36,098 bases of DNA from contig NZ_QGDU01000033.1 of NCBI RefSeq assembly GCF_003149045.1, forward strand, positions 1 to 36,098. The letters run 5' to 3'. A program made the translations under genes and the position numbers. This document shows positions 6,434 to 23,550 of this stretch, in pieces. Under the pieces are notes generated by a model. That model saw only the letters and a list, made by a program, of their open reading frames with translations, was not told the origin of the DNA and ran no database searches. Source of the stretch: Fibrobacter sp. UWR4. GTDB taxonomy: Bacteria > Fibrobacterota > Fibrobacteria > Fibrobacterales > Fibrobacteraceae. Each line of letters opens with the position of its first letter. The first letter of the stretch is position 1.

Positions 6434-6503
6434 TTACCCTAACTCGTGCGACGGCGTCGCACTTTTTCCAGCAAGACAATCCTTAATTTTGGGATATTTT
6501 AAA
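6434..6503 (-). pseudogene. Internally deleted remnant of a second YhcG-type nuclease gene
   Basis: Bases 6441-6503 match the interior of the intact nuclease gene (4681-4743, 61/63), and the adjoining 6434-6440 (TTACCCT) match that gene's last seven bases at 3969-3975. Both source sites carry AATTCGT (3976-3982 and 4681-4687), so a deletion of about 705 bases between these 7-bp repeats would give exactly this product. The remaining frame still reads KYPKIKDCLAGKSATPSHE and ends LG-stop like the intact protein. It shares its upstream edge with the yggS stop codon. Confidence 0.75.
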
Positions 6504-7260
6504 CAGGATCGTTGACAGGCTTGCTGTAGTCCCGTTCGCCGAAGAGGGCGGTGCCCACGCGGATCATGGTGGAGCCTTCTTCGATGGCAACTTCCAGGTC
6601 GCCAGTCATGCCCATGGAAAGCTGGTCGAAGTTTGCGAATACGCCGCCCTTGGCCAAGTACTTCTGCTGGAGATTGCGGAGGAAGGCAAAGCATTCGCGG
6701 GAATCTTCTGCAACGCCAGTGTTCTTGCCAATGGTCATGAGACCGCGGAATTTCAAGTGCGGGAAATTGCGGCCTTCCAATGCCGCCAAAAATTCATCCG
6801 CGCGGGCGATATCTAACCCGCTCTTGGTTTCTTCTTCACCGGCATTCACCTGGAAGAGAATTTCGAGAGTCTTACCATTGTCGCCGGGAAGTGCCGCGCA
6901 AACCTTTTCCAGTTTTTCAACGGCTTCCATGCTGGCAATGGAATGAATGCAATCTGCAACGATGGCGGCCTTCTTCAGTTTGTTGCTCTGCACCGGGCCA
7001 ATGACATGGCACTGCACCGGGCTTCCGTCGAGAGCCATGCGACGTTCGCTGAACTTGGATTCCGCTTCCTGCACGCGGTTTTCACCAAAGACCTTTGCGC
7101 CCAGGGCAATTGCATTTTCTACCGCTTCTGCCGGGTGAAACTTGCTCACCCAAACCAAAAGCACAGATTCACGGGAACGGCCAGCCTTTTCGCAGGCAGC
7201 GGCAATTCTCGTTTCCAATTTGGCCAGCTGGCCACCCATTTCTTCAAGAGTAAATTCCAT
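6499..7260 (-). CDS. yggS: YggS-family pyridoxal-phosphate homeostasis protein
   Basis: The 253-residue protein (start at 7260, not the in-frame 7302, because the family begins just before its first helix) has the YggS signature. LVWVSKFHP carries the PLP-binding lysine (Lys40), followed by FGENRVQEAE, HVIGPVQSNKL, FQVNAGEEETKSG, LRGLMTIG-like GLMTIGKN, LSMGMTGDLEVAIEEGSTMIRVG and FGERDY. These proteins bind PLP in a TIM barrel and balance vitamin B6 and amino-acid pools. The normal C-terminus is followed by a short SKPVNDPV tail whose stop codon (6499-6501) lies inside the nuclease-gene remnant, so the 3' end has been rearranged. It diverges from the transglycosylase gene 48 bases away. Confidence 0.93.
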   Translation of the reverse strand: MEFTLEEMGGQLAKLETRIAAACEKAGRSRESVLLVWVSKFHPAEAVENAIALGAKVFGENRVQEAESKFSERRMALDGSPVQCHVIGPVQSNKLKKAAIVADCIHSIASMEAVEKLEKVCAALPGDNGKTLEILFQVNAGEEETKSGLDIARADEFLAALEGRNFPHLKFRGLMTIGKNTGVAEDSRECFAFLRNLQQKYLAKGGVFANFDQLSMGMTGDLEVAIEEGSTMIRVGTALFGERDYSKPVNDPV

Positions 7261-7308
7261 ACCCGAAATATAACTTTTTATATATTGTTCCAAGAAAGGC
7301 ATAAAATT

Positions 7309-7935
7309 TTGAAGAAATTATTACTGGTCATATTCGCGATTCTATTCCTATGCGGGGGCGTTCTCCCCGCAGTGGAAGACTATCTGGATGAAGTCGCAAA
7401 CAGCAAAGTGGTCCTCACCTTTTTTGGCAAGAAGGATTCCCCCGAAAAGTTAAAAAAGTTCATTACCTCGGTGAATCAGAAATTAAGCGATGCAGACGTG
7501 AGCCGTTTTGCTACCTATATCCTGACTTATTCAAAACAATACGACGTGGATTACAAATTGGTGGCCGCCGTCATTGCCCAGGAAAGCAAATTCAAGTTCA
7601 ACGCCAAAAGTCGCGTGGGGGCGTTAGGGCTTATGCAGGTCATGCCCACCACCGGAAAAAACGTGGCCCAGAAACTGAAGCTTCCCCACTACAACCTATT
7701 GGATGCGAAAGACAATATCCAGATCGGGGTCAAGTTCATTTCCATGCTACACAAGGAATACCACGGCGACATCAACCTGATGCTAGCCCACTATAACGGC
7801 GGTTACAGACAGGCGGAGCTGTACAAGACCTTCCGTTATTTTGAACTCTTGCGCTTGATCGCAATGAAGTACGAAACCTTTGACTACGTCAAAAAAGTCA
7901 AGGCCAATTACCGAAAGATTAATCGAGAGATTTAA
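7309..7935 (+). CDS. Lytic transglycosylase, SLT/GH23-type domain
   Basis: Starting at TTG 7309 (AAAGG about 9 bases before), the 208-residue protein has an N-terminal hydrophobic segment for export (about 3-20). The SLT domain follows: VAAVIAQESKF with the catalytic Glu92, GLMQVMPTT (107-115) and AHYNGG (160-165). Such enzymes cleave peptidoglycan glycan strands in the periplasm with anhydro-muropeptide formation; this one resembles the catalytic part of Slt or MltC-like proteins. Its last 27 codons are repeated at 10982-11063 with synonymous changes, so the gene's present end may have been supplied by inserted DNA. An upstream ATG-type extension would run antisense through yggS and is rejected. 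Confidence 0.92.
   Translation: MKKLLLVIFAILFLCGGVLPAVEDYLDEVANSKVVLTFFGKKDSPEKLKKFITSVNQKLSDADVSRFATYILTYSKQYDVDYKLVAAVIAQESKFKFNAKSRVGALGLMQVMPTTGKNVAQKLKLPHYNLLDAKDNIQIGVKFISMLHKEYHGDINLMLAHYNGGYRQAELYKTFRYFELLRLIAMKYETFDYVKKVKANYRKINREI
7854..7935 (+). repeat. Direct repeat copy A: 3' end of the transglycosylase gene
   Basis: This 82-bp segment matches 10982-11063 at 73 of 82 positions. Seven of nine differences are synonymous third-position changes, one changes the last residue Ile to Phe and one changes TAA to TAG. Copy A is joined to the intact gene. Confidence 0.92.
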
Positions 7936-7945
7936 ACGTCACGAA

Positions 7946-8428
7946 TTATTCGCAAGTCACCGCTAATTTCAACCAGGCAGAATCAAGCGTCAATCTTTTC
8001 AAACTTACACCATCAGCAATTGTATAGTCCATTTCATCACCAGCCTTTTCTGATCGAGGATCAAACTCGCCATTCTCCACAGGTCCCGTAAATGTCAAAC
8101 ATTTTAACGGTGTAGTTTTGAATTCAAGTTCAGCTTCAACATTTGCTTCAGAAAAACGCTCCAAAAGCCGTTCAATAAAAAGAGGCGTAGACTCTATCAA
8201 AGAATCACTAAATTGAAAAGACTTTCCCGAACCAACATATACCTGTAGGGAATCTTCAACTTGAGGATAACCCCATCTAAATTTTACCTCAACATCAACG
8301 TCTAATGAATTAACAATCTCACCGAGTTTACATACGTTTTCCCAAACATCAGCTTGAGCAACAGAATCTTTTGAACAAGATACAAATACACAAAAGATTA
8401 CAAGGTAAATAAAAAGACGCTTAATCAT
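7946..8428 (-). CDS. Small lipoprotein of unknown function
   Basis: A 160-residue protein with a clear lipoprotein signal (lipobox VFVSC, Cys18) and AAAGGA before its ATG. The mature part is acidic and shows no familiar motif; two pairs of strands around a charged centre seem likely but no fold can be named. It lies 14 bases after the larger HEVAH lipoprotein gene on the same strand and ends 10 bases from the transglycosylase stop, so it is probably the second gene of that operon. DNA here is much richer in A and T than the flanks, in keeping with acquisition. Confidence 0.75.
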   Translation of the reverse strand: MIKRLFIYLVIFCVFVSCSKDSVAQADVWENVCKLGEIVNSLDVDVEVKFRWGYPQVEDSLQVYVGSGKSFQFSDSLIESTPLFIERLLERFSEANVEAELEFKTTPLKCLTFTGPVENGEFDPRSEKAGDEMDYTIADGVSLKRLTLDSAWLKLAVTCE

Positions 8429-8442
8429 TAGTCAATCCTTTT

Positions 8443-10128
8443 TTATTTCAATTTCCAATAATCAAACAACATATTTAAATTATCTTCGGTATAAGATCGC
8501 CCGTCTACTCCCGATTTTAAATTTTTCAAAATATAGTTTTTCACTTCAGGCAAAGTCTTAGAGACTAAAAACGCCTTTTCTACATCTGTAATTTTGAATC
8601 CAGACACCTTATCTATATTAGACTTATAACCGTCAGCAGATTTTGTATTTACATCTATTAAATCCTGACCAATCCCAACATATGCGGAGGAATAACTTAC
8701 TCCACAAGTGGATTTTAAATCCCCAGAACAATATCTGTTATTCGTAAAATACCATTCAATTCCTCTGGTAAACGCATCCCTATAATTTTCTTTTTCATCA
8801 TTAAATAACGAACTCTTTTGATTTGAATACAACGAAAAATGAGCAACTTCGTGAATAGTAGACCGATATATGCCATCAGATTGTCTATCATCGGTTGCCA
8901 ACATCATAATTCTATCATCAAACATTGTAGAAGAACTTAATATGTAAAACCCCCATACCCCATCCTTATACTGATATCCGGCATCACTCATCGCTTTTTT
9001 AAAATCGGACTTATTCTTATAATACACTTCTATATCCAAACTTTGATTACCAGCAGTATTACTTCGCGGTTTTTTCAATCCAAATCGATTGCCATACCAA
9101 TATTGATATGCAGCGGTCCAGACCGCACACCACCTGGCCTCTTTTCCTGTAAATGTTTCATTCCAGTCGGAGTGCTTATTATTCTTTTCAATCTCAAGAT
9201 CTTCACCATAAATTGAGTGTCCATCTTCAAGCAAAAATTCATCAGAGTCAAAATTAGCTTCATAATCAATGTCAAAACTCCACTTTTCTGGAATTGAAAA
9301 ATGACCATTCACATCAGTATGAGCTTCGCGCCAATAGTATGAATAACCACCCGTTACACGAACACCCACCAATGGTTGCTCCCCAAGGTAATCATCCACA
9401 AATTTTAGTGTTCCACCTAATTTCTTCGCACTGCTAAATAGAGACCACGCAAGCTTAGGTTTTTCACCGACATTTAGTTCAGTTGCAGATGATTTAAGAC
9501 GTTCTGCAAGATTTCCTGTCATCTCCAATGAATTCCATTCAACCTCATGTAAGGATACTCCAAGTTCATCTAGTTTGGAGGAAGCCTTCTTTGCAAGACC
9601 CTTCATAGCATTACCATCATCCAACACATCATCTGGTTCTACAAGAAAAAGTTCCTTGATAATCTCATACCTCGTTGGTCCAAACTTATAATCAACTGGA
9701 ACCGTGGCAAATAAGGGTACAATAGAATCAGGCAGCGAAAGGTCCTTGTAAACAACAGGCTTCTTAATAGGCTTATAGTCTAGGGGATGCTTAAACAATA
9801 CAAGGGATGAATCATATTGTTTTAATTCATACGCCCCCTTCTTTCCATCCGCAAGAAACCTTATATACAGGTAATTCGGCTCAAAAGACAAACCGCTTAC
9901 ATCAGCCGAATCTTCCGCACTATGACACTTTGCCAGGGCCGTCTTACGTAGAGCCTCACTCATATTTTCTACGGTATAGGGGTCTTGGGCAGGATTGCTA
10001 ACTACAGCAGAAGTAATGACATTAACGAAAGGTGCGACCTCCTCAGAAACGGGAATTTGAGGATTGGACATCTCAGAACAGGCGCAGAGCATCAAAGATG
10101 CCACACCAAGGCAGAATATATTTTTCAA
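8443..10128 (-). CDS. Large lipoprotein with a HEVAH metalloprotease-like motif
   Basis: This 561-residue protein starts at TTG 10128; AGGAGG at 10134-10139 fixes the start. The signal peptide ends in LCAC (lipid-modified Cys17). Residues about 236-282 (TLKFVDDY...PLVGVRVTGG...HTDVNGHFSIPEKW) resemble a carboxypeptidase-regulatory-like beta sandwich. Residues 424-430 read TIHEVAH, a zinc HExxH motif, and Glu458 in RGIEWYF could be the third ligand. A surface or periplasmic metallopeptidase is the likeliest reading, but the family is not recognised and the motif could be non-catalytic. AT-rich DNA, its own promoter and direct repeats at both ends of the block point to acquired DNA. Confidence 0.75.
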   Translation of the reverse strand: MKNIFCLGVASLMLCACSEMSNPQIPVSEEVAPFVNVITSAVVSNPAQDPYTVENMSEALRKTALAKCHSAEDSADVSGLSFEPNYLYIRFLADGKKGAYELKQYDSSLVLFKHPLDYKPIKKPVVYKDLSLPDSIVPLFATVPVDYKFGPTRYEIIKELFLVEPDDVLDDGNAMKGLAKKASSKLDELGVSLHEVEWNSLEMTGNLAERLKSSATELNVGEKPKLAWSLFSSAKKLGGTLKFVDDYLGEQPLVGVRVTGGYSYYWREAHTDVNGHFSIPEKWSFDIDYEANFDSDEFLLEDGHSIYGEDLEIEKNNKHSDWNETFTGKEARWCAVWTAAYQYWYGNRFGLKKPRSNTAGNQSLDIEVYYKNKSDFKKAMSDAGYQYKDGVWGFYILSSSTMFDDRIMMLATDDRQSDGIYRSTIHEVAHFSLYSNQKSSLFNDEKENYRDAFTRGIEWYFTNNRYCSGDLKSTCGVSYSSAYVGIGQDLIDVNTKSADGYKSNIDKVSGFKITDVEKAFLVSKTLPEVKNYILKNLKSGVDGRSYTEDNLNMLFDYWKLK

Positions 10129-10190
10129 CGGATCCTCCTAACGGACCACAATGTTTCCTTGTACAAACTATTTCGAACAAAGCATCGTCC

Positions 10191-10219
10191 AATATAAAAA
10201 AAGTAAATTTCAACGTCAA
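10191..10219 (-). promoter_or_regulatory. Promoter for the two-lipoprotein operon
   Basis: On the minus strand TTGACG (10219-10214), a 17-base spacer and TATATT (10196-10191) form a near-consensus promoter about 60 bases upstream of the TTG start at 10128. Confidence 0.65.
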
Positions 10220-10258
10220 TACAAAATCAATCATCCTTCTTACCCCACATCCCAAAAA

Positions 10259-10283
10259 GACCCGCAGATTTTTTCCGCGGGTC
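10259..10283. terminator. Intrinsic terminator, usable in both directions
   Basis: GACCCGC (10259-10265) and GCGGGTC (10277-10283) form a perfect 7-bp stem around an 11-base loop. A-rich bases precede it and T-rich bases follow, so minus-strand transcripts leave through TTTTT and plus-strand ones through CTTTAATTTTTT. It would isolate the lipoprotein operon from the transposase remnant. Confidence 0.65.
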
Positions 10284-10299
10284 CTTTAATTTTTTGGCT

Positions 10300-10360
10300 T
10301 AAGTGTCAAAAGGATACCTGAAAAAGGGTATCCTTTGCTTTAAGTGTCATTTGGATACCT
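10300..10360. repeat. Paired 20-bp direct repeats plus hairpin, possible IS end
   Basis: TAAGTGTCAAAAGGATACCT (10300-10319) and TAAGTGTCATTTGGATACCT (10341-10360) differ at three central positions. Between them AAAGGATACC (309-318 of this thousand) pairs with GGTATCCTTT (10327-10336) to form a 10-bp hairpin. They lie just beyond the stop codon of the transposase remnant, the place of an insertion-sequence terminal repeat; two copies could mean nested ends. The other end of the element is missing, so this cannot be confirmed here. Confidence 0.5.
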
Positions 10361-10378
10361 AAATCCGCTTCAATCCCT

Positions 10379-10984
10379 TTATCCGTCTGCGTTCAGACGA
10401 GAAAAATGTTCCAAAATCATGGTCTTGCGACTATTCTTGGATATGCCCTTGTGAAGGCGTAAGATGGACTTCAAATCTGTAAACATAGATTCGATTCCAT
10501 TGTTCGTGTTTGGGACACCTGACCCATACATTTCCTCGAAGGTCCATAGAAAACGCATGTTTCTTTTTATGCTGAGATAGGCGCTTCGAAGGTTCTTATG
10601 CGTGTAGCGCATTTTTCCGTCGGTGTACAAAGCCCGTTCCTTTAGGAAAGCCGTCCACTTACTTTCCCATTCGCCAAACAGTCCTTCAAAGGAAGCCCGG
10701 TCTGTGTGGACCATGAAGTAGGTCAGCTCAAGAAGTTCTCTTGATGCAGGCAGTTTTGGCCTGCTAGTCAACCAATGCTTGACGGTCTTTATCTGATGAA
10801 ATTGGCAGTACTGAAACGGATACCTGGATAGCCGCTCTCTCAGGCCCCGTAAGCCATCGCTGACGATGCACACAATTTCAAAGCCGTTCTTTTCCAGCCA
10901 TTCAACGCCTTCAACATAGTCTTCAACGCGCTCCTTTCTGTTTATGAATTTTGACCAGACAACATGTCCCTTGATTGAATCCTT
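10379..10984 (-). pseudogene. Transposase remnant, IS256/MULE-like DDE type, N-terminus missing
   Basis: The frame is open from the stop at 10379 back to about 10984, about 200 residues, and then runs into unrelated sequence. It reads KDSIKGHVVWSKFINRKERV, then CIVSDGLRGL with the second catalytic Asp, CQFHQIK and finally NTNNGIESMFTDLK with the catalytic Glu, as in DDE transposases of the IS256/IS1249-like or MULE groups. The first catalytic Asp and everything before it are missing, so it is inactive. The cut is exactly at the start of the stranded transglycosylase 3' end. Exact IS family is uncertain. Confidence 0.8.
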
Positions 10985-11063
10985 GATCGCAATGAAGTAC
11001 GAAACCTTTGACTACGTAAAAAAAGTCAAGGCCAATTACCGGAAAATCAACCGGGAATTTTAG
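10982..11063 (+). pseudogene. Stranded 3' end of a lytic transglycosylase gene (direct repeat copy B)
   Basis: This segment encodes LIAMKYETFDYVKKVKANYRKINREF-stop, nearly the same 27 residues as the end of the gene at 7309-7935, but has no upstream coding region. Its left edge abuts the truncated transposase, with at most a few bases of shared sequence. It ends three bases from the stop codon of the convergent membrane-protein gene. Because its differences from copy A are almost all synonymous, both copies evolved under protein-level selection before separation. Confidence 0.9.
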
Positions 11064-11066
11064 CGT

Positions 11067-12059
11067 TTAATGGGAAAATGCTATAAAATAAATGCCTACA
11101 GAACTTAAAACAATAGAAAACAAATAGCCAAACCACGAAACTATTGAAATTGCCTTTGTTTTAGGATTTTCATAACAGCCGTTATAAAGACATACCGTTG
11201 TCATAAAAATTTGGAAGAGCAACGGTACAATAGTAGCAAGTTGAATCAAAAAAAAGAATCCTAACGAGATTGCACACAAAACGCCTTCTATTAACAACCA
11301 TGGCGCAAAAGGAGCCAAGGCAATAAGGATTACGTTTCTTTTCGTCTTAATCCCCTTTAAGCAACTCAGATATATAAAAGCAAGGGGTATAGCCAACATC
11401 AACGGCATGTACAATTTCGCCATGAATTCCCCAATGAGGTTGAAACTATCTAAGTTCTCGTATCCATAAGCCTCATTGACTGTCTTTTCCTGCATATACC
11501 ACAAATAAGGCCATGACCCCATCAGCATAGTGACAATCATGCAAATGATGATTCCGATCTTGTTCACCTTGAAGGGTGGTTTCGCTTCGTACACGTTATC
11601 TTGAATGGACTCAAATTGAGGAACAAACTCTATGGTTTCTTTCGTTAACTTCTCTCGTTTAAAACAGAAGTAAATAATCAACATTATTTCAAGAAATACC
11701 GGAAGGCCTAAGGACACGAAGGTCACATCACACAGTAATACACTGCGAAGAAGATCGGTACACAAGCAGCAAGGAACAACATATAAAGGAATACTCACCA
11801 CAAAAGGAATGGCTGGTTTCAAAGCCAGTTTAAACGATTGTGTAAAATTCTCAATTCCTTTCAGCGCTTTCCAATAAGAAAAAGAAAATGGAACACCGAC
11901 AGCCATCGGAAGAACCGCAAACCAGCAGAAAGGACTTAATTGTACATAATGCATTTCGTGCAACAGGGCGCACAATGGGAATAACAGAACTACCATTGCT
12001 TCCGCAATACAAATTCCCAAAATGATTTTCTTCCAGAGAGGTACTTTCAGCGTTTCCAT
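11067..12059 (-). CDS. Multi-pass membrane protein of unknown function
   Basis: A 330-residue protein with about eight hydrophobic segments (near residues 10-32, 40-60, 84-100, 112-133, 170-190, 213-232, 243-275 and 300-325) and a charged cytoplasmic-like stretch at about 134-165. No active-site or family motif is recognisable. The coding DNA is AT-rich, and it follows directly behind the lon terminator, so its promoter is not obvious; ATTAGG precedes the ATG. It faces the stranded transglycosylase end, which suggests it was the original convergent neighbour of that gene. Confidence 0.7.
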   Translation of the reverse strand: METLKVPLWKKIILGICIAEAMVVLLFPLCALLHEMHYVQLSPFCWFAVLPMAVGVPFSFSYWKALKGIENFTQSFKLALKPAIPFVVSIPLYVVPCCLCTDLLRSVLLCDVTFVSLGLPVFLEIMLIIYFCFKREKLTKETIEFVPQFESIQDNVYEAKPPFKVNKIGIIICMIVTMLMGSWPYLWYMQEKTVNEAYGYENLDSFNLIGEFMAKLYMPLMLAIPLAFIYLSCLKGIKTKRNVILIALAPFAPWLLIEGVLCAISLGFFFLIQLATIVPLLFQIFMTTVCLYNGCYENPKTKAISIVSWFGYLFSIVLSSVGIYFIAFSH

Positions 12060-12076
12060 CCTAATCCCTAATTTAC

Positions 12077-12107
12077 AAAAAAGGACCCGCGGTTTTTATT
12101 CCGCGGG
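12077..12107 (-). terminator. Intrinsic terminator after lon
   Basis: On the minus strand CCCGCGG (12107-12101) and CCGCGGG (12092-12086) form a perfect 7-bp stem with an 8-base loop, followed after three bases by TTTTTT (12082-12077). It lies about 76 bases past the lon stop codon and ends the tig-clpP-clpX-lon transcript. Confidence 0.7.
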
Positions 12108-12132
12108 ACCTAATATAATTAATGCACTAGAT

Positions 12133-12173
12133 CCTTCGACTTCGCTCAGAGCTTGCCCTGAGTTCGCCGAAGG
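12133..12173. repeat. REP-like palindromic element (the type often mistranslated as LRACPEFAEG)
   Basis: CCTTCG (12133-12138) pairs with CGAAGG (12168-12173), and CTCAG (12145-12149) with CTGAG (12158-12162), giving an imperfect hairpin. The surrounding TCCTTCGACTTCGCTCAG wording is a repeat found between genes in many bacterial genomes and explains a spurious plus-strand reading frame here. It lies between the lon stop and its terminator. Confidence 0.7.
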
Positions 12174-12182
12174 GATGACACG

Positions 12183-14645
12183 CTACTTTTTCCTAGCAGG
12201 TTTTGCCGGAGCCTTTTTCACGGGTTTCTTCGCTGTAACCTTCTCGGACTTTTCGGATTCTTCGTCCTCATCGTCTTCCTTTATACTAGCGCTTGAGCCT
12301 GCGGCAGCAGGCGAAACCTTCACTCCCCTAAAAAGGATCTTGATGATTTCGTCGATGTGCTTGTGGGTGAAGATCTTCAGGCCCTTCTTTGCAGGTGCCG
12401 GGAGTTCGTCCACATCCTTCTGGTTCTGGGCCGGGAGGCGCAAGGTCTTTACACCAGCCTGGAGAGCAGCCAGAGCCTTTTCGTTGAGGCCACCGATAGC
12501 CAGGCAGTTGCCCGTAAGGCTTACTTCGCCAGTGAAGGCAATGTCTGTGGGAATGGGATGGCGGGTGAATGCAGAAAGCAGGCACAGCGTGAGGGCGATA
12601 CCGGCGGAAGGACCGTCCTTGGGAACAGCGCCTTCGGGTACGTGAATGTGAATGTCGGTCTTCTTCACGATGGCAGGGTCAATGCCAAAGCGCTGCAGAC
12701 GTTCGCGAACCAGGGAAAGCGCAATCTGGGCGGATTCCTTCATGACGTCGCCCAGCTTACCCGTCATAATGAGGGCGCCCTTGCCGGAGAGTAGCATGCA
12801 TTCGATGGGAAGGATTTCTCCGCCCACACTTGTCCAGGCAAGGCCCGTCACGATGCCCGGGCGGCCAGTTTCAGGCAGGGTGCTACCGATAAAGCGGGGA
12901 GCGCCCAGGTATTCCTGCAAAGTCTTTTCGGTCAGATCCTTCTGGAACTTCTTGCCCATGACCATGTCTTTCGCGCGATGGCGAACCACGTTTTCCAAGG
13001 TACGTTCCAGTTCACGGACGCCAGCTTCGCGGGTCCAGTCGCGGATTACCTTACGGACAATTTCGTCGGAGAAGGCAATGTCTTCGCCCAGCTTCACGCC
13101 GGTGCGTTCACAAATGCGGGGCACCAGATAGTTGGAAGCGATCTTTTCCTTTTCGTGGGGATAGTAGCCCGGCAGGCGCACCATTTCCAGACGGTCGTGG
13201 AGAGCTTCGGGAATCTGGTTTTCGTTATTGGCGGTAGCGATGAACAGCACGCGGGACAGGTCCAGACCCACTTCCATGAAGTGGTCCGTAAAGTCGTGAT
13301 TCTGTTCCGGGTCCAAGACCTCCAGCATGGCGCTGGCGGGATCTCCACGGAAGTCGCTTGCCATCTTGTCGATTTCATCCAGAAGGATAATGGGGTTCAT
13401 GCACTTGGCGCGCTTCAGGGCGTGAATGAAACGGCCCGGCATGGCACCGATGTAAGTACGGCGATGACCGCGAATTTCGGCTTCGTCACGAACGCCACCC
13501 AAGGTGATGCGGACGAAATTGCGCTGCATGGCCTTGGCGATGGATTCCACCAGAGTGGTCTTGCCAACGCCCGGAGGACCAACCAGGCAAAGGATGGGAG
13601 CGCGACGTTCCGTGCCCGTAAGCTTCAGAACGGCGATGTATTCCATAATGCGATCCTTCACCTTGTCCAGACCAAAATGCTTTGCGTCCAGCTCGGCCTT
13701 CACCTTCTTCATGCTGAGAACGGTGTCGGTGTACACATTGTACGGGAGCGTGAGGAACCAGTCCAGATAGTTGCGGCTTACGGCGTATTCCGGCGACGTG
13801 GGCTGCATCATGCGCATGCGGGAAATTTCTTCTTCCAGCTTTTCCTGGATGGCGGGAGCGAACTTCTTTTCCTTGATCTTCTTTAAAAGCTGGTCCGGTT
13901 CGGACTGGCCGTTTTCGCCATCCAGTTCATCCTGGAGCTGGCGGATCTGTTCGGAAATGAACCATTCCTTCTGCTGCTGGGCCATCTTCTGGCGGACATT
14001 CTGCTGGACCTTCACCATCAAGGTGTCGTTGTTTGCGGCCATCTGCATCACCTGCAAAAGGCGATTCGCCAGATCATTAATGTTCCCAATTTCCAGAAGA
14101 GTCTGACGTTCATCCAGGGAAACCTGAAGGAACGGAATCATGCCATAGAATGCATTCAGGTGGCTATCCATGGTAAAGAGGGCGTCCACCATGCCATCCG
14201 CGATGTTGCGGTGCATGGAGTATTCCTTAAACTGGTTCAGTACCAGTTCAAAATTTTCACAGCGGTCGGCTAGCTGAATCCTGGGATTACGTTCAGAAAC
14301 GGTAACCTGCAAAAAGCCCTTTTCCTGGACGATGGAGCGGAGATCCACTACGGATTCACCTTCCAGAACCACCTTTACGCAACCATTGGGGAAAGGCGTC
14401 ACGTTGCTGACGCGGGCAAGGACACCCACGGAATAGAGATCCAGCATGGGGTTCGCAATTTCTTCCAGCTCGATATTTTTCTGAGCGGAAAGAATAATTT
14501 CGTTACCGTGGGCTTCGGCGTATTCCAATGCCTTCAGGGAAATTTCCCTACCTACCAGAATACGGCGGGTGGTCAGCGGAAATACAATAGCGTCCCTCAG
14601 AGGGAGCAACGGGTATGTCTTATTCACGTCAAGAGCCAAAATCAT
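12183..14645 (-). CDS. lon: ATP-dependent protease Lon
   Basis: The 820-residue protein has the full LonA layout: an N-terminal substrate-recognition domain (about 8-205), a coiled linker (210-245), an AAA+ module with Walker A GPPGVGKT at 356-363 and Walker B LLDEID at 421-426, and the protease domain with catalytic Ser680 (GPSAG) and Lys723 (NEKALAA). Lon degrades misfolded and regulatory proteins in the cytoplasm. Residues about 788-820 form an acidic stretch and then a Lys/Ala/Pro-rich tail not part of the core enzyme. GGAG lies 7 bases before the ATG. It is 43 bases downstream of clpX, in the same orientation, probably one operon. Confidence 0.97.
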   Translation of the reverse strand: MILALDVNKTYPLLPLRDAIVFPLTTRRILVGREISLKALEYAEAHGNEIILSAQKNIELEEIANPMLDLYSVGVLARVSNVTPFPNGCVKVVLEGESVVDLRSIVQEKGFLQVTVSERNPRIQLADRCENFELVLNQFKEYSMHRNIADGMVDALFTMDSHLNAFYGMIPFLQVSLDERQTLLEIGNINDLANRLLQVMQMAANNDTLMVKVQQNVRQKMAQQQKEWFISEQIRQLQDELDGENGQSEPDQLLKKIKEKKFAPAIQEKLEEEISRMRMMQPTSPEYAVSRNYLDWFLTLPYNVYTDTVLSMKKVKAELDAKHFGLDKVKDRIMEYIAVLKLTGTERRAPILCLVGPPGVGKTTLVESIAKAMQRNFVRITLGGVRDEAEIRGHRRTYIGAMPGRFIHALKRAKCMNPIILLDEIDKMASDFRGDPASAMLEVLDPEQNHDFTDHFMEVGLDLSRVLFIATANNENQIPEALHDRLEMVRLPGYYPHEKEKIASNYLVPRICERTGVKLGEDIAFSDEIVRKVIRDWTREAGVRELERTLENVVRHRAKDMVMGKKFQKDLTEKTLQEYLGAPRFIGSTLPETGRPGIVTGLAWTSVGGEILPIECMLLSGKGALIMTGKLGDVMKESAQIALSLVRERLQRFGIDPAIVKKTDIHIHVPEGAVPKDGPSAGIALTLCLLSAFTRHPIPTDIAFTGEVSLTGNCLAIGGLNEKALAALQAGVKTLRLPAQNQKDVDELPAPAKKGLKIFTHKHIDEIIKILFRGVKVSPAAAGSSASIKEDDEDEESEKSEKVTAKKPVKKAPAKPARKK

Positions 14646-14688
14646 TTCTCCAATAGCCCGCTAGCCTTTCCAGCGAGCCAAATCGAAA

Positions 14689-15975
14689 TTAGGAAGCCTT
14701 CTTGCGGCCCTTTTTCGGGGCGGCAGCTACAGCGGTTGCCGGTTTAAGTCCTTCACGGACCATTTCGGCAGTAATGGAAAGAGTCTTGGTGTCAGAACCA
14801 GGAACAGTGAACATGAATCTCTGGAGAGCCTTTTCCAATACGGAACGAAGGCCGCGGGCACCCGTCTTTCGAGCCATGGTCTCGCGAACAATTTCCTTCA
14901 GGGCATCGTCAGTAAATTCCAGTTCCACTCCATCCATTTCAAACAGTCTCTTGTACTGCTTCACAAGAGCGTTCTTGGGCTGGGTCAGAATATTCAAAAG
15001 TGCTGCTTCGTCCAGTTCCTCGAGGGCCACTGCAATAGGCAAGCGGCCGACGATTTCGGGAATAAGACCGAACTGGATCAGATCATCCGGTTCCATCACC
15101 TTGAACAGCTCGCTCAGGGAATTTTCTTCGGAACTACGGATGTCAGCGCCAAAACCCATGCCGCCCTGATTTACACGGCGGGCAATGATCTTGTCCAGAG
15201 TTTCAAAGGCGCCACCGCAAATGAACAGGATATTGCGGGTATTCACCTGCACCAGGGGCTGTTCAGGATGCTTACGGCCACCCTTGGGAGGCACTGCAGC
15301 GACAGTACCTTCAAGAAGCTTCAGCAAGCCCTGCTGAACACCTTCACCACTCACGTCGCGGGTAATGGAAGGGTTGGCAGTCTTGCGGGCAATCTTATCA
15401 ATTTCGTCAATGAAGATGATGCCACGTTCAGCACGGGCAACATCGTAATCGGCAGCCTGCAACAGGCGCACGATAATGCTATCCACGTCTTCACCCACAT
15501 AGCCTGCTTCCGTAAGGACGGTTGCGTCGGCAATGGTAAAAGGCACATCCAGGAAACGGGCCATGGTCTGGGCAAGCAAAGTCTTGCCGGAACCGGTGGG
15601 ACCCACCAACAGCAGGTTGGACTTGTCCACTTCCACATCGTTCTTGGAATTGTGAGTTTGTTTGTAACGAAGGCGCTTGTAATGGTTGTAAACCGCTACA
15701 GAAAGAGCCATCTTGGCCTGGTCCTGTCCGATGACGAATTCGTCCAGGTGGTCCTTGATCTGGCTGGGAAGGGGCAGAGGCTTGGAAGCAACTTCTGCTG
15801 CAGCCTCTTCCTGTACTCTACGGGAACGATCCTCTTCGATGATGCGATGGCACATGGACACGCAGTCGCTGCAAATATGCACGCCTGCACCAGTGATCAT
15901 CTTCTCGACTTGCTCTGCCGGCTTGCCACAGAAACTGCAAGACACGGTGGGGTGGTTCTTCCCGCTACGATACAT
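14689..15975 (-). CDS. clpX: ATP-dependent Clp protease ATP-binding subunit ClpX
   Basis: A 428-residue AAA+ unfoldase. The zinc-binding domain has Cys13, Cys16, Cys35 and Cys38; Walker A GPTGSGKT is at 125-132; Walker B reads [11 protein letters not shown] and the sensor-2 region GARGLRS is near the end. ClpX recognises tagged substrates and feeds them into ClpP. The protein ends in an Ala/Lys-rich tail (PKKGRKKAS). Its ATG overlaps the clpP stop in TAATG, a sign of translational coupling that fits equimolar assembly. Confidence 0.97.
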
Positions 15976-16565
15976 TAAATTCCCTCTTTACGCGGCACAA
16001 AAATTTCATCGATGACGCCAAATTCCTTGGCTTCTTCGGGGCTCATGTAGAAGTCGCGGTCGGTCTTTGTACGGACTTCTTCAATAGACTTGCCAGAATG
16101 CTTGGCAACGATTTCGGCCAGGGTATCCTTGGTGCGGACAATTTCCTTGGCGGTAATCTGGATGTCGGTAGACTGACCGGTTGCAGCGCCAGACGGCTGG
16201 TGCAGCATGATGCGGGAATGCGGCAGAGCATAACGCTTGCCCTTGGTTCCTGCAGCAAGGAGCACGGCAGCCATCGAAGCGCAACTACCGATACAGATGG
16301 TAGCGATGTTCGGGCGAACATGCTGCATGGTATCGTAAATGGCCAGACCTGCCGACACGTAACCACCCGGGCTGTTGATATACAGCGTGATATCCTTCTC
16401 CGGATTCTCGTATTCAAGGAAGATCAGCTGGGCCATGACGTTATTGGCCACTTCATCATTGATGGGAGTTCCCAAGAAGATGATGCGTTCCTTGAGGAGG
16501 CGGGAGTAGATGTCGTAGGCGCGTTCACCGCGTCCGGTGGTCTCGATGACGGTAGGAATGATCAT
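15975..16565 (-). CDS. clpP: ATP-dependent Clp protease proteolytic subunit ClpP
   Basis: The 196-residue serine peptidase has the catalytic triad at Ser97 (GSCASMAA), His122 (MLHQPSG) and Asp171 (TDRDFYMS), the same numbering as the Escherichia coli mature enzyme. [16 protein letters not shown] (65-80) is the handle and oxyanion-side region. Fourteen ClpP subunits form the chamber that degrades proteins unfolded by ClpX. It lies 14 bases after tig and overlaps clpX by one base. Confidence 0.97.
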
Positions 16566-16579
16566 TATGAGTTTACCTC

Positions 16580-17839
16580 TTACTTAGTTTCTTCAGCGGC
16601 AGCGCGAATGCCAACGATGAAGTCTGCAGCCATCTGGATGCGGAGTTCGTCGCGCATAGCATTGATGCGGCCGGACTGACGGAAGTGGGCCTTCAGGGAT
16701 TCGAAGTCCACATGGTATGCGTTAGCCATAGCCTGGAGACGTTCGTCAACCATAGCCTGGGTCGGCTTGATCTTTTCGGCAGTAGCGATGAAGTCGAGAA
16801 TGCGATGCTTCTTGATTTCACGGACAGCTTCCGGAGAGAGAGCCTTAATCTGTTCTTCGGTGGGTTCGATAACGTCCTTTTCGTTCTGGACGTTACGGTT
16901 GATGGACCAGCGGATCAGGTCGCTGATACGAGCCTGAGGCACTTCGAACGGGTTAGCTTCGATGATCTTATCGATAGCTTCGTTCACAGCCTTGTTCTTG
17001 ACAGCGTCCTTCTTCTGGTTTTCGATGCCATCAGCAAGATTCTTCTTCAGGTCTTCCACATCCTTGACGCCAACCTGTTCGAAGAAAGCTTCGTCCATGG
17101 TGGGAGGAACGATGGCGCGAACGTCGGTAACTTCGACCTTGAACTGGGCAGTCTTACCGCGATAGCGTTCGTCCTTGTGGTCTTCCGGATACTGGAAGTT
17201 GATTTCCTTGGTTTCGCCAGCCTTAGCGTCGACGAGACCTGCGTCGAATCCCGGAGAAGCGGATTCACCGAGGAGAGAACGGAATTCCTTGTTTTCCGGA
17301 AGGTCCTGCTTTTCGCCGTCGATAATGACTTCGATGTAGTTACCCACAACGACGTCACCCTTTGCAGCGGCACGGTCCACATGTTCGTCCTTGCTCCACA
17401 TCTGCATGAGACGGTTGTATTCAGCGTCGATTTCTTCCTGGCTTACAGCAACAGCCGGAACGGTGATACCGGTGTCGGCATAGCCCTTGATATCGATTTC
17501 CGGATCCATTTCGACTTCAACCTTCAGAGTGATGTCTGCGGTCTTGTCGTCGTTGAAGTCAACAACCTTCATCTGGCCAACGGGAATGATGTTTGCCTTC
17601 TTCAGTTCTTCCTGGACGATCTTGTTGATGGTTTCATCAACAACTTCGTGACGGATGGATTCACCAAACTGCTTCAGGATCATTGCCTTGGGAACCATGC
17701 CCTGGCGGAAACCCTTCAGGGTAACCTGCTTCTTGTACTGGTTCACCTTCTTTTCGAAGGGAGCAGTCAGGTCAGCCTGCGGAATGGAAATTTCGAGGGT
17801 GCGCAGAGTGGCGCTAGTTTCTTTGATTTCAACGCTCAT
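16580..17839 (-). CDS. tig: Trigger factor, ribosome-associated chaperone
   Basis: A 419-residue protein with the three trigger-factor domains. The N-terminal ribosome-binding domain carries the signature loop [12 protein letters not shown] (about residues 43-54), where most homologues have GFRKGKVP. An FKBP-type peptidyl-prolyl isomerase domain (about 155-240) starts at [10 protein letters not shown] and the C-terminal domain (about 260-415) is the SurA-like helical cradle. It binds nascent chains at the exit tunnel. GGAG precedes the ATG. It heads the tig-clpP-clpX-lon group and sits 40 bases downstream of a tRNA-Leu gene on the same strand. Confidence 0.95.
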
Positions 17840-17879
17840 TATGAACTCCGATAATCGATTTAATTAGATGTTAAAAACA

Positions 17880-17959
17880 TGCGAGGGGTGGGAGTCGAAC
17901 CCACACACCGAGGTACCAGATCCTAAGTCTGGCGCGTCTGCCAATTCCGCCACTCTCGC
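17880..17959 (-). tRNA. tRNA-Leu (anticodon UAG)
   Basis: The minus strand folds as a class II tRNA. The acceptor strands are GCGAGAG and CCCTCGC with one A-C mismatch at the sixth pair. The anticodon stem CCAGA/TCTGG encloses loop CTTAGGA with anticodon TAG, an 11-base variable arm (TACCTCGGTGT) follows, and the T arm is GTGGG-TTCGACT-CCCAC. The discriminator is A, as required for leucine. CCA is not encoded. It reads CUA and probably other CUN codons. Confidence 0.93.
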
Positions 17960-18026
17960 GATTTTGCACCCAAAGATACAAAATGCGGAAGACATTTGGA
18001 ATTTAATCATCTAATTTTACCCACCG

Positions 18027-19259
18027 TTGCAAGCGTTAAAGAACATACGAATCGGAATTTTTATTTCACTGGTGAACATCCTCATCCAGGGAGTTTCCGT
18101 CCTCGTCCAGAATATTATCGCTAATAATTTGGGAATTGTAAACTTCGGATACTTCGGAATTTTACAAAGTGACTATACCATCTTCTGCGCACTGGCGGAT
18201 TTCGGCATGGCAACCCTGATTTTGGCCTTTTTTGGGAAGCGGGCAACCCAGGGCAGGTTATTCATAAACGTTCTCCAGTTACGACTTTCCATGACCGCGA
18301 TGGCAGCCCTGGTAATGGTCGCTTTCGCCTTTATCTGCAGGTGGGACAGTCCCGTATTCTACGGAGAGCTTATCCTTGCCCTAGGATTACTTTTCCAGCA
18401 CGCCTTCTTTGACTGGTACTTCATCTGCGGCAACTTCTGGAAGAAACTCCTGATCTCGAAAGTTCTTCACACCATCTCCTACACCACCATCATGGGAATC
18501 GCCCTCTGGTATTTCCACTTCGATTCCATCCCGGCAATCGCAGGCGCCATGGTGGTAGCGGCTCTCCCCGCATTCGGATTTGGCGTAGGCCAGGCATTTA
18601 CCGCGAAGGTCCTGCGCATAGGAATTCATACCCGTAGGTTCTTCGCGCTGATGTTCAAGTCCGCATGTCCCTACGCCCTTTCAAGCCTTGCAAGCTTCGC
18701 CTATCTGCCGGTAGGTCTCTATACCGTGGCAAGTTTCGCTCCCGAATCTTTCCTCGGCTCCTACAATTTTGCACACAAACTAATCATCCTTGCCTCGGGG
18801 CTCATGGTCCACTTCATTTCCAGCAGCCTCATTACCCTGCACCAGACGGACAGCAAGACCCTGCACCTGAGGGACCAGGCCGTCTTCACCCTGTTCATCA
18901 CCGCAGTTTCCAGCCCCTTCTGGCTGTTCCCGCAGTTCACCCTGAAGCTGATCTTCTTCGGAGCCCCCTGGACCGCCGAAGTACTTGAAACCAGCTGTTT
19001 CTGCCTAAGGATCCTGGCGATGTCCCTCATCCTGCAGGCCACCCGCATGGGGATGATCTCCACCATGCTCAAGGAAAAGCGGACCTGGACCTACGGCATC
19101 ATGATTACCGCAGGTGGCGTCGTGAACATAGCAGCATGTCTCATTGGAGCGCAACTGCTCTCCAATCGTTACATCCCCCTGCTGACCTTGACCGGTGATT
19201 TACTGCTGAGCCTGCAGCTGGCCGTCTACTTTATCAAGAACAGGCGCTTCGGCTGGTAA
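18027..19259 (+). CDS. Wzx-like polysaccharide flippase (MOP superfamily)
   Basis: A 410-residue, strongly hydrophobic protein with about 12 membrane helices and the N-terminal pattern of oligosaccharide flippases (a first helix ISLVNILIQGVSVLVQNIIA followed by LGIVNFGYFGI). Such proteins move lipid-linked repeat units across the inner membrane. The frame opens after a stop at 18012-18014 and the only early start is TTG 18027, with no clear ribosome site, so the start is uncertain. It is convergent with the wzy-like gene, whose final codons overlap its own by 60 bases, and together with the wza- and wzz-like genes it forms a Wzy-dependent assembly set. Confidence 0.85.
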   Translation: MQALKNIRIGIFISLVNILIQGVSVLVQNIIANNLGIVNFGYFGILQSDYTIFCALADFGMATLILAFFGKRATQGRLFINVLQLRLSMTAMAALVMVAFAFICRWDSPVFYGELILALGLLFQHAFFDWYFICGNFWKKLLISKVLHTISYTTIMGIALWYFHFDSIPAIAGAMVVAALPAFGFGVGQAFTAKVLRIGIHTRRFFALMFKSACPYALSSLASFAYLPVGLYTVASFAPESFLGSYNFAHKLIILASGLMVHFISSSLITLHQTDSKTLHLRDQAVFTLFITAVSSPFWLFPQFTLKLIFFGAPWTAEVLETSCFCLRILAMSLILQATRMGMISTMLKEKRTWTYGIMITAGGVVNIAACLIGAQLLSNRYIPLLTLTGDLLLSLQLAVYFIKNRRFGW

Positions 19260-20558
19260 CTTTCCCGGTTCCCCAGGATCCTTCCTCAGGCGGCCGCGAC
19301 CAGCGCATATGGTAGTGGCAATGCAGATATACAGGCACCAGATGCAATAAAGTCCCTGCTTGTAGCCTGCCGTAAAGAACCACCATCCCACGAAATAGAT
19401 AAACAGCGTATAAAGCGCAATCTGCCGGGGACTGAACCTCCCGCACAGTCGCAAGTGCAGCAAGGTGAGGGCCATGCCGCACAATAGCGGGAACAGGCAG
19501 CAGCCCACCAGATGGAAATCCTTGTACACTTCCCACAGGTAGTTCACCGTGTTGAAGCCGTACACCTTCTGGATCCTTTCATTGAAGGCATCGTCCCAAC
19601 GGAAACTGTTCCTGAAACTTCCGCTCACACGGGCATACTCAAACACGCCGGCAAAGAAATCGATTCCATAGGTATGGGGATGTACTTCATTGTCATTGGA
19701 CGGATTTACCGCATAATCCAGGTTCCAGTAATTGTTGGCCACGTACATGTAGGGCAACTTCATCACGGCATCCATGGCCTTGCCCTTGATATCGCTTCCG
19801 CCATATTGGGAACGCAGGCTACTGATGGCCACAAAACTTCCAATGGCAAGAACCAACGCCAGGGAAATGATGACCGGCGAAATACGCTTGTACAGAAAGT
19901 TGGACATGATGATCAGGAAGCCCAGGTTGCAGAACAGGGATGTACGGTTCGGGTAGGCCATCAAGTTCATGAGAATGGTAAATACCACCATGAACTTCGA
20001 GATATTGCAAACAAGTCGATTATCGTTAAACTTCTTGAAAGCGGCAACACCAAAGAGCAGGACCGCAAGAGGACCGCTACTCAAAAGGATTGCATAATAA
20101 CCATAATCCACATCCTTGCTCATCCAGTCCGCAGGATGGTCCGTAAACACGATCAGGTTGCCCGTCTTCTGAACCACGCCAAAGACGCCCACCATGAACA
20201 GCAAGAATGCCACAAAGGAAAACACAAGATGAATGTTCCAGTTGTAGTCCCTGGGCGGCGTGGGAGCCGCCAAATCGCAGCTCATCCTCTTTGAACGGGC
20301 ATACTGGGTCACCAGGAAGCATCCGCCGCAGAAGGACACCAGACCCAGAATCCAGACCATCCAGGTCTTGGCGTGAAAGTCCGTCATGGCAGGGTCAAGG
20401 CGCAAAAACGCAATCCCCAGGGTCAAAAACTGGGTAAAGCAGTAAATGGATATAGGGCTAAAGAAGTCGCGTTTCAGCCAGGCCACACGGACAAGGCAGA
20501 ACAGCGTGACAACAACAGAGACTGCAGTTTCCGGATAGTCCATTATCCAGGAAAACAT
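19200..20558 (-). CDS. Wzy-like oligosaccharide repeat-unit polymerase
   Basis: The 452-residue protein has about ten to eleven membrane helices and a large hydrophilic loop (about 270-345: residues such as YVANNYWNLDYAVNPS, HTYGIDFF and FNTVNYL), typical of O-antigen/capsule repeat-unit polymerases. Conserved-like features of this diverse family are weak, so the call rests on topology and on neighbours. The final 18-20 residues (PAEAPVLDKVDGQLQAQQ) are read antisense to the end of the flippase gene, suggesting an original stop further upstream was lost. It lies 3 bases from the wzz-like gene. Confidence 0.82.
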   Translation of the reverse strand: MFSWIMDYPETAVSVVVTLFCLVRVAWLKRDFFSPISIYCFTQFLTLGIAFLRLDPAMTDFHAKTWMVWILGLVSFCGGCFLVTQYARSKRMSCDLAAPTPPRDYNWNIHLVFSFVAFLLFMVGVFGVVQKTGNLIVFTDHPADWMSKDVDYGYYAILLSSGPLAVLLFGVAAFKKFNDNRLVCNISKFMVVFTILMNLMAYPNRTSLFCNLGFLIIMSNFLYKRISPVIISLALVLAIGSFVAISSLRSQYGGSDIKGKAMDAVMKLPYMYVANNYWNLDYAVNPSNDNEVHPHTYGIDFFAGVFEYARVSGSFRNSFRWDDAFNERIQKVYGFNTVNYLWEVYKDFHLVGCCLFPLLCGMALTLLHLRLCGRFSPRQIALYTLFIYFVGWWFFTAGYKQGLYCIWCLYICIATTICAGRGRLRKDPGEPGKLPAEAPVLDKVDGQLQAQQ

Positions 20559-20561
20559 AAA

Positions 20562-21767
20562 CTATCCCTTCTTTCTGGAGAAATGAGCCTTGAAGGCAGC
20601 CCACTGCCTAGCAGTCTCGGAACCGCGATTTTCCTCGTCGTCCAGGAATCCCAGGATGTTGCAGACAATGGTTGCGACAATGAACGATACCAGGAAGGCG
20701 AACATCAGCGACACCCCACGGAGAGGATAAATCTTCTTGTCGTTTTCCCAAGGCGGTTCCAGCACATGAAGATTGGTCAGCATCTTCGCTTCTTCCATAC
20801 GCATCTGCTCGCTCTGCTGGCGAAGCAGCTTGTACATGGCTTCCTGCACGCGAATTTCAGATTCACGACGGACGTATTCGGCGCCAAGTTCCGGAGACTT
20901 CTTCAGGGAAACAAGACCCAGGTCCTTGTGCTTTCCGTTAACGGCGCTATTCAATGCGGAATTTACACCCTTGTAGCGCTTATTCAATTCATCATAGCGT
21001 CTGCTACCATCACCGCGGTCAGCCTTTTCAAAGGCCAATTCCATGGATACTTCCTCACGCTTGCTCTGCAGGGAGCTCAAGTACTTGAGGGTAGATTCCA
21101 GCTGGACTTCCGGATCGTAAATGTTGTTCTCTTCCTGGAACTTCACGAAGTCATTGATGAGGGAATCCAGAACATGTACGCAGGAATCCAGACGGGACTG
21201 GAAGTACATACGGGACTGCCTTGCCTGGGAAGTCTTGAAGGCATTGAAGGCGGAGTCCGTCTTTTCCAGGATAAAGGAGACCATCTTTGCAGCCAGCTTG
21301 TAGTCCTCATCCTCCATGGAGACCGCAAACATGTCCTCCTTGTTCACTTCCACGCCAAAACGCTTGCGGAACATTTTCAGGAGGTCGGCATGGAAGTCGC
21401 CATCGAACTCGTAATGTTCCGCCAGGTTAAATTCCTTGATGACCTGGTTATGCAGTTCCCAGGAATTGATGATAGTCCACACGGCATTCGCGTCATCATC
21501 GGCAGAACCAAGTCCCAGGAGGGAGCTGACACTACCAGACGCACCGCCCAGCATGGAGCTAAGGCCACTAAGCGTATTCTGGGATGCGGCCGGAGGAGTC
21601 ACCACCGCGGTAGCGGCATACATAGGCTTGATTACCCACATGACCAGCACAAAAGTAACGATAGTCGGTAACCACAAAATGAAGAACCACAGCTTGAAAC
21701 GCTTCAAGCAGTTGTTCATCACGCGAAGGATGATTTCGATAAAGCCAGCGGAAGCCTGGGTATTCAT
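20562..21767 (-). CDS. Wzz/GumC-type chain-length determinant (polysaccharide co-polymerase)
   Basis: A 401-residue protein with a membrane helix near residues 26-46, a long periplasmic part with predicted coiled coils (about 190-335), and a second helix near 350-375 preceded by a proline-rich segment (LEPPWENDKKIYPLRGVSL). That is the Wzz/GumC architecture. No tyrosine-kinase domain follows, so it is the kinase-free type. Such proteins set the length of chains made by Wzy. Residues about 61-88 form a Gly/Ser-rich stretch. It is 5 bases downstream of the exporter gene, in the same transcript. Confidence 0.85.
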   Translation of the reverse strand: MNTQASAGFIEIILRVMNNCLKRFKLWFFILWLPTIVTFVLVMWVIKPMYAATAVVTPPAASQNTLSGLSSMLGGASGSVSSLLGLGSADDDANAVWTIINSWELHNQVIKEFNLAEHYEFDGDFHADLLKMFRKRFGVEVNKEDMFAVSMEDEDYKLAAKMVSFILEKTDSAFNAFKTSQARQSRMYFQSRLDSCVHVLDSLINDFVKFQEENNIYDPEVQLESTLKYLSSLQSKREEVSMELAFEKADRGDGSRRYDELNKRYKGVNSALNSAVNGKHKDLGLVSLKKSPELGAEYVRRESEIRVQEAMYKLLRQQSEQMRMEEAKMLTNLHVLEPPWENDKKIYPLRGVSLMFAFLVSFIVATIVCNILGFLDDEENRGSETARQWAAFKAHFSRKKG

Positions 21768-21772
21768 AAATT

Positions 21773-22939: not shown

Positions 22940-22980
22940 CAAAAAACCGTATATCGATATAAATGTCAGAATAAAATACA

Positions 22981-23015
22981 AAAAAAACGAGTCGGTGATT
23001 TGAATCGCTCGTTTT
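22981..23015 (-). terminator. Second hairpin with T run, upstream of the export operon
   Basis: AAAACGAG (23015-23008) and CTCGTTTT (22991-22984) form a perfect 8-bp stem around a 16-base loop on the minus strand, followed by further T residues. It lies between the rplQ terminator and the export gene. It could be a back-up terminator or an attenuator in the leader of the polysaccharide operon. Confidence 0.5.
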
Positions 23016-23033
23016 ACATGAACCAATCGGGGT

Positions 23034-23067
23034 AAAAAAAGTCCGGCCTTGCGACCGGACTTTTTTT
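23034..23067. terminator. Strong symmetric intrinsic terminator after rplQ
   Basis: GTCCGG (23041-23046) and CCGGAC (23055-23060) with an 8-base loop are flanked by seven A and seven T residues, which extend the stem and act as a U tract on either strand. It lies 19 bases past the rplQ stop and closes the ribosomal-protein super-operon. Confidence 0.88.
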
Positions 23068-23085
23068 AGCTTTTTACGCTATGGA

Positions 23086-23550
23086 TTAGTTGTTGCTTTC
23101 GCCTTCAACCATGTTAACGGTTTCGGGCTTGGCAGCGTCAGCAGCCTTCTTGGTCTTCACAACGATTTCGTCTTCGACGAGACCGATGAGAGCCATTTCA
23201 GCAGCGTCACCAGCGCGGTTCGGGCCGAGCTTCAGGATACGGGTATAACCACCGTTACGGGAAGCATAGCGCGGGCCGATAGTGTTGAACAAATCCTGGA
23301 GAACCTTCGGGTCCATCACGAAGCGAGCAGCTTCACGACGTGCAGAAAGGTCACCCTTCTTTGCATAGGTAATCATGCGTTCCACACAGCTACGAACGAG
23401 CTTAGCCTTGTGGAGAGTGGTGCGCACGTAGCGGTCGCCCTGTTCGGCTTCCATACCCTTTCCAAGAATGGAGGTGGTAAGAGCGCGGAGGATGGCACGC
23501 TTGTGCTGGGCGTTAACGCCGAGTTTCTTGTTTTTTACACCGTGTCTCAT
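23086..23550 (-). CDS. rplQ: 50S ribosomal protein L17
   Basis: The first ~120 residues are typical L17 (MRHGVKNKKLGVNAQHKRAILRALTT...), placed near the tunnel exit of the large subunit. The 154-residue protein has about 30 extra C-terminal residues ending KPETVNMVEGESNN, an acidic tail beyond the family core. It begins two bases after the rpoA stop and is the last gene before the terminator. Confidence 0.97.
   Translation of the reverse strand: MRHGVKNKKLGVNAQHKRAILRALTTSILGKGMEAEQGDRYVRTTLHKAKLVRSCVERMITYAKKGDLSARREAARFVMDPKVLQDLFNTIGPRYASRNGGYTRILKLGPNRAGDAAEMALIGLVEDEIVVKTKKAADAAKPETVNMVEGESNN

Follow-up and report, generated by a model that had tools for sequence, protein, structure and literature searches.

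A contig of 36,098 nucleotides from Fibrobacter sp. UWR4 (NZ_QGDU01000033.1, forward strand; termed here the window) raises the question of how the end of one gene came to lie on both sides of a block of other genes. The last 82 bp of a lytic transglycosylase gene, referred to below as the SLT gene after its SLT domain, recur beyond two lipoprotein genes and a truncated transposase gene, beside a convergent membrane-protein gene. An initial annotation of this DNA explained the repeat by insertion of foreign DNA carrying a homologous gene end, which left the native end stranded. The locus was compared across 80 Fibrobacter genomes, including the window's own, and the pattern as a whole is very probably best explained by a recent horizontal insertion that occurred without an integrase and also replaced the tail of the SLT gene. 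The draft genome to which the window belongs, as contig C33, comprises 3.6 Mb in 93 contigs (completeness, 99.99%; contamination, 0.12%); the overall G+C content of the window is 50%. The features on which the argument depends, with G036 denoting a genome of another Fibrobacter species, are as follows.

7309 to 7935, plus strand: lytic transglycosylase gene (SLT domain, PF01464, E value 4e-26), intact, TTG start; the recipient's gene with a donor-type 3′ tail
7854 to 7935, plus strand: repeat copy A, in use; 7854-7889 of recipient type, donor-type tail from 7917 or earlier, 7927-7935 identical to G036 (site table and alignment)
7854 to 7867, plus strand: SLT-gene copy of the 14-bp word CTTGATCGCAATGA, partner of the right joint on the recipient side; its bases 7861 G and 7863 A occur in the window's genome alone
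7936 to 10981, no strand assigned: imported block; two differences from G036, at 9277 and 10119
10982 to 10995, no strand assigned: microhomology joint, where transposase and SLT sequence coincide; after CTTGATCGCAATGA, G036 goes on with CGCC as transposase and the window with AGTACG as SLT gene
10982 to 11063, plus strand: repeat copy B, the stranded native 3′ end of the SLT gene; the remainder of the gene is missing and the copy ends REF-TAG
11067 to 12059, minus strand: membrane-protein gene, the convergent neighbor; stop codon 3 bp past that of copy B, relatives in the yggS-lon interval and in G036

Origin of the block and its two junctions

The two copies are identical at 73 of 82 positions (7854-7935 and 10982-11063), and the nine differences consist of seven synonymous third-position changes, one ATT/TTT change (Ile/Phe) and one TAA/TAG change, a recount that agrees exactly with the initial annotation. 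A mechanical repeat search returned this pair (7854-7934 and 10982-11062, 90%), with the next longest direct repeat in the region being 35 bp at 74%, and no third copy was detected in the window's genome. The differences were unevenly placed, as none fell in the first 36 bp (7854-7889) and all nine fell in the following 46 bp (7890-7935; Fisher P = 0.004). These segments are too short for a tree and were judged by site patterns. Orthologues of the SLT gene were present in eight other Fibrobacter genomes (64 to 92% amino acid identity), and, among the nine SLT genes compared, copies A and B were the same over 7854-7889 whereas all the others differed from them at six or more sites. By this pattern, each copy begins with 36 bp of recipient sequence.

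Beyond this point the copies resemble different lineages. In its tail, copy A agrees with G036 at 7917 G, 7923 T, 7929 G and 7930 A and in the TAA stop codon, and its REI-TAA ending was seen elsewhere in G036 only. The encoded C-terminal residues are REF in G025, G011, G024, G009 and copy B, REL in G077, and REI in G036 and copy A. Copy B had its best match in G025, as did the SLT body, and its Phe codon is also seen in the block-free relatives, which upholds the proposal that this is the native end. Each base of copy B occurs either in a functional relative or in copy A, and hence the copy is without decay. The site patterns in 7854-7935 therefore place the left crossover inside the SLT gene end, at about 7868-7914, and indicate that the donor-derived part of this gene is its last 22 to 46 bp only. 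The idea that the insert brought a homologous gene end was thus correct for this tail but not for the full length of copy A.

Evidence for foreign origin came from alignment of the block with the same place in G036. Over the 3,069 bp of positions 7927-10995 there were 2 differences (99.93% identity), while the SLT bodies were 84.1% identical (Fisher P of approximately 1e-70 for the contrast). Near identity of the block beside an SLT body at 84% argues for a recent transfer, and the block is, on this comparison, foreign and recently acquired from another Fibrobacter, as the insertion hypothesis had held. Only the window's genome and G036 carried the block. The order in G036 is SLT gene, small lipoprotein gene (lp160), large lipoprotein gene (lp561), an IS256-type insertion sequence (IS), fragments of a membrane-gene relative, and lon; this order spans a contig break, with the C-terminal piece of the membrane gene on contig C38 and the middle piece and lon on C29. 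Both ends of the IS are present in G036, with an 8-bp target duplication, AATTTTTT. Copy B is not present in G036, which has one SLT end only. As G036 has an intact IS, the 8-bp duplication and no copy B, the window arrangement is derived from a G036-like one. The AT-richness that had also been noted for the block was confirmed (G+C content of 39.5%, with 37% for lp160 and 38% for lp561, versus 54% for lon) but did not discriminate, since the native membrane gene, outside the block, is just as AT-rich (38%); low G+C content is therefore weak evidence of foreignness. Carriage of the block by a plasmid or phage was considered and rejected: for lp561 a single distant relative on a plasmid was found (25%, Chryseobacterium), a phage search with lp561 gave no match, and a plasmid search with lp160 gave no relative.

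At the right joint, the minus-strand transposase frame stays open as far as 10981, where copy B takes over, so that truncation of the transposase at this copy, as previously described, was verified. The sequences that meet here are as follows.

G036, all transposase: ...TTGAATC CTTGATCGCAATGA CGCCAAAATTCC...
Window right joint, transposase changing to SLT gene: ...TTGAATC CTTGATCGCAATGA AGTACGAAACC...
Window SLT gene at copy A: ...CTCTTGCG CTTGATCGCAATGA AGTACGAAACC...

The transposase and SLT genes are unrelated and have exactly 14 bp in common at the joint, an overlap expected at a random joint with a probability of approximately 5e-8. Within a collection of 140 loci, CTTGATCGCAATGA was confined to the window's SLT gene, copy B and the G036-type IS. 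Among the nine SLT genes, 7861 G and 7863 A were private to that of the window; because CTTGATCGCAATGA holds these two bases, the SLT side of the joint is attributed to the recipient. These comparisons identify the right joint as a microhomology joint of the transposase onto the recipient's SLT gene. Transposition of the IS was rejected as a cause of the repeat, because the 82-bp repeat is distinct from the 8-bp target duplication of the IS, which itself is cut; the element would have been the source of the microhomology only.

Mechanism, donor and rival explanations

These observations support a refined account, in which foreign DNA would have entered by homology at the SLT 3′ end and exited by microhomology, with a short duplication as the result. 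The recipient would have started with a single SLT gene whose native 3′ end, now copy B, lay 3 bp from the convergent membrane gene. The incoming DNA, from another Fibrobacter, would have comprised an SLT 3′ end, the two lipoprotein genes and the IS256-type element. On the left side, recombination within the last ~80 bp of the SLT gene would have kept the recipient's own body and gained the donor's last 22 to 46 bp. On the right side, the donor transposase gene would have been joined to the recipient SLT gene at the chance 14-bp identity CTTGATCGCAATGA, leaving the IS without its right end. The left crossover (about 7868-7914) is downstream of that joint (7854-7867), and for this reason the block has 82 bp of the SLT gene on each of its sides. 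The comparisons show the foreign origin of the block, the direction of the change, the two junctions and the native type of copy B. Both sides could have been made in a single event, with homologous strand invasion at one end and either annealing at a microhomology or a template switch to a sister copy at the opposite end. We infer one event rather than two, entry by natural transformation or a similar form of uptake, and the nature of the immediate donor. The genome encodes a ComEC-type protein, which does not in itself demonstrate competence; a limited literature search found nothing specific on transformation of Fibrobacter, and to our knowledge natural transformation has not been shown in this genus.

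Some observations weigh against this account. The joints are taken from a draft assembly, and the comparison set contained no block-free strain of the same species. In addition, 7890, 7908, 7914, 7920 and 7926 remain different between copy A and G036. Five differences are too many beside two changes in the 3 kb of the block, so that either G036 was not the direct donor or copy A recombined further. With these differences in the final 46 bp of the SLT gene, G036 was rejected as the direct donor, which probably belonged to a third lineage that also has this block. An SLT gene ending in ..CGAAAGATTAATCGAGAGATTTAAACGTCACG, together with an intact IS, would mark the direct donor. G077 shares CGAAAGATTAATCG with copy A, and A-like tails therefore exist in the genus.

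The anatomy of the locus can be set beside known routes of integration. Homology-facilitated illegitimate recombination (HFIR) is known from Streptococcus pneumoniae, Acinetobacter baylyi and Pseudomonas stutzeri and, rarely, from E. coli; it involves microhomologies of 3 to 10 bp and usually the deletion of recipient DNA of a size similar to that of the insert (PMC3240628). As in HFIR, one end here is homologous (the SLT 3′ end), the other lies at a microhomology and no integrase is involved. Unlike typical HFIR, 82 bp were duplicated, no recipient loss is visible and the microhomology is 14 bp. Uptake of linear DNA and dependence on RecA also belong to HFIR. The locus thus appears to work like HFIR without being a typical product of it. 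The process is a known one, of which this locus is a neat natural example, and neither a new system nor a new kind of element is present. It does provide a well-resolved natural case of integrase-free entry of foreign DNA into a chromosome, with both junctions placed within a few dozen bases, while comparable cases are known mostly from laboratory transformation. The locus also suggests that DNA is imported and recombined between Fibrobacter species and that the C-terminal residues of a gene can change as a by-product of a neighboring insertion.

Several other histories were weighed against a single insertion of this kind. In a two-step version, a block with an intact IS would first have been gained by homologous recombination in another strain of the species, with crossovers in the SLT end and in the membrane gene or lon; in the second step, a block-free strain would have recombined with DNA from that strain through the microhomology joint of transposase and SLT gene. 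The identity of copies A and B over 7854-7889 would then need no sister chromosome, since both strains would have had the same SLT body, and the intact-IS arrangement does exist at this locus in G036. Two events are required, however, and no strain of that kind was present in the comparison set, so that the two-step version is a credible possibility but falls short of probable. Circularization offers a different source for the repeat. During E. coli conjugation, linear DNA can circularize and integrate by a single crossover, giving target duplications of 109 to 950 bp (PMC3240628), and a fragment closed via the 14-bp word and integrated by one crossover in the SLT end would place an insertion between short direct repeats of the target gene, as observed here. 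In that process the joint forms within the donor molecule, and the SLT part of the circle would be the donor's, so that the donor SLT gene would need CTTGATCGCAATGA; the word was absent from the SLT genes of G036 and the other seven relatives, whereas the recipient's gene has it, with two private and hence recipient-specific bases at the joint. We regard circularization as unlikely.

The persistence of a functional gene end, with the displaced end at the far border, would also fit a site-specific integrative element that targets and restores the SLT 3′ end, copies A and B being attL and attR. Some genomic islands do integrate at the 3′ end of a gene and restore it, and here too the target gene regained an end from the incoming DNA while its old end moved to the far border. 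The block, unlike such islands, contains no integrase (two lipoprotein genes and an IS256-type fragment only), its other carrier, G036, has it at the same site without a second copy or an att pair, and the right border lies inside the transposase gene rather than at the end of an element; such an element is hardly conceivable. An old local duplication of the SLT end, followed by divergence and later insertion of genes between the copies, would supply two homologous copies at one locus, but the A/B differences lie only toward the 3′ end and follow two separate lineages, another species has a nearly identical block, copy B is undecayed, and in G036 the block adjoins a single SLT end, which refutes this explanation almost completely. 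Joining of contigs from two coassembled species is conceivable in a 93-contig draft. Against this, the right joint has a shared word of no more than 14 bp, and an overlap of this length is too short for the usual assembler join; the copy A tail differs from that of G036; and completeness and contamination are 99.99% and 0.12%. An artefact is accordingly considered very improbable.

Empty sites and the yggS-lon interval

The order yggS, SLT gene, lon, without the block, was found in G025, G024, G009 and G077, with yggS-to-lon gaps of 678 to 794 bp. G011 is also block-free, with the SLT gene next to lon and yggS on a separate contig. The initial annotation had predicted that strains lacking the block would have an SLT gene ending like copy B and followed directly by the membrane gene. 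The ending was as predicted in the four genomes with REF, but these genes run directly into lon; the membrane gene was absent from all of the block-free SLT-carrying genomes (G025, G011, G024, G009 and G077), and the predicted empty site was not found among the 80 genomes. Neither of the arrangements named as contrary evidence, two full SLT genes at these places or an empty site ending like copy A, was found in this set. Relatives of the membrane gene sit between yggS and lon in eight other genomes, all without this SLT gene, and G036 has pieces of such a relative between the IS and lon; the membrane gene is therefore a plausible old neighbor in the yggS-lon interval, as had been proposed. The stop codons of copy B and the membrane gene are 3 bp apart (11061-11069), and hence the native SLT gene and the membrane gene would have converged, leaving hardly any room for a terminator.

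The yggS-lon interval (6499-14645 in the window) ranges from 3 bp to 6.5 kb across 55 Fibrobacter genomes. The lon side of the window (12316-23707) is ~90% identical to G036 and G011, while the yggS-SLT side (6499-7935) is about 82 to 88% identical to all relatives, and the flanks of the block therefore appear to be of different ancestry. G007 has two yggS genes, one next to lon and the other next to a relative of the membrane gene on a different contig (L137, G007 C11:1-8000). The SLT-lon gap of G077 has a 41-bp match to a terminator at 10254-10294; it was set aside, as similar hairpins recur in these genomes. A tentative reading, which we consider rather improbable, is that the yggS-lon interval is an integrase-free exchange site at which surface-lipoprotein cargo has been swapped repeatedly. 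Equally speculative is the associated proposal that DNA enters by homology in the SLT gene or its neighbors and exits by microhomologies, the duplicated or replaced gene ends being recurrent scars of an import route common in the genus. Among named sequences, those closest to the window's SLT gene were from Fibrobacter metagenome-assembled genomes of horse feces (88 to 92% protein identity). In G078, the usual stop codon of the SLT gene (L139) is lost, with RDEV... at the end, and lon is on another contig rather than next to it.

Cargo genes and the insertion sequence

The block contains the following features.

7946 to 8428, minus strand: lp160, small lipoprotein gene, 160 amino acids, lipobox FVSC
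8443 to 10128, minus strand: lp561, lipoprotein of 561 amino acids with an HExxH motif, putative zinc metallopeptidase, lipobox LCAC
10191 to 10219, minus strand: candidate promoter of the lipoprotein operon, TTGACG-17-TATATT, from a consensus scan alone, with a score total no higher than that of shuffles
10288 to 10295, no strand assigned: left copy of the IS 8-bp target duplication AATTTTTT; the right copy occurs in G036 only
10296 to 10995, minus strand: truncated IS256-family (variant Zn-binding) element, right end missing, transposase fragment at 10379-10981

The IS fragment and its full relatives fit the IS256 family of the variant Zn-binding type (NF048019) in their ends and 8-bp target duplications. 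The transposase fragment scored 226.6 bits with this model versus 318.4 for a full relative (cutoff, 150). Terminal inverted repeats and an 8-bp target duplication were seen in G036, L133 and L135, and both ends were also present in L134, the ends having the form GGCT...GTGTCA...GGATACC. The window's genome contained no further copy of the block IS. The G036 transposase (L043:397-1320) is without much of the N-terminal Zn-binding/helix-turn-helix part found in L133 and L134, and the IS may therefore move only with help.

Neither lipoprotein had a Pfam or NCBIfam match. The lp561 protein belongs to a multicopy family found mainly in Fibrobacter, with three copies in G036, and a weak relative of lp160 adjoins an lp561 relative in G013. 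The AlphaFold model of lp561 had a predicted local distance difference test score of 44 and was unusable for a fold search. Residues H426, E427 and H430 were invariant in an alignment of eight sequences, and lp561 may be a surface metallopeptidase. The window's own genome also contains a decayed-looking relative of lp561, in fragments with 67% and 44% identity (L138, G000 C22:23000-31000).

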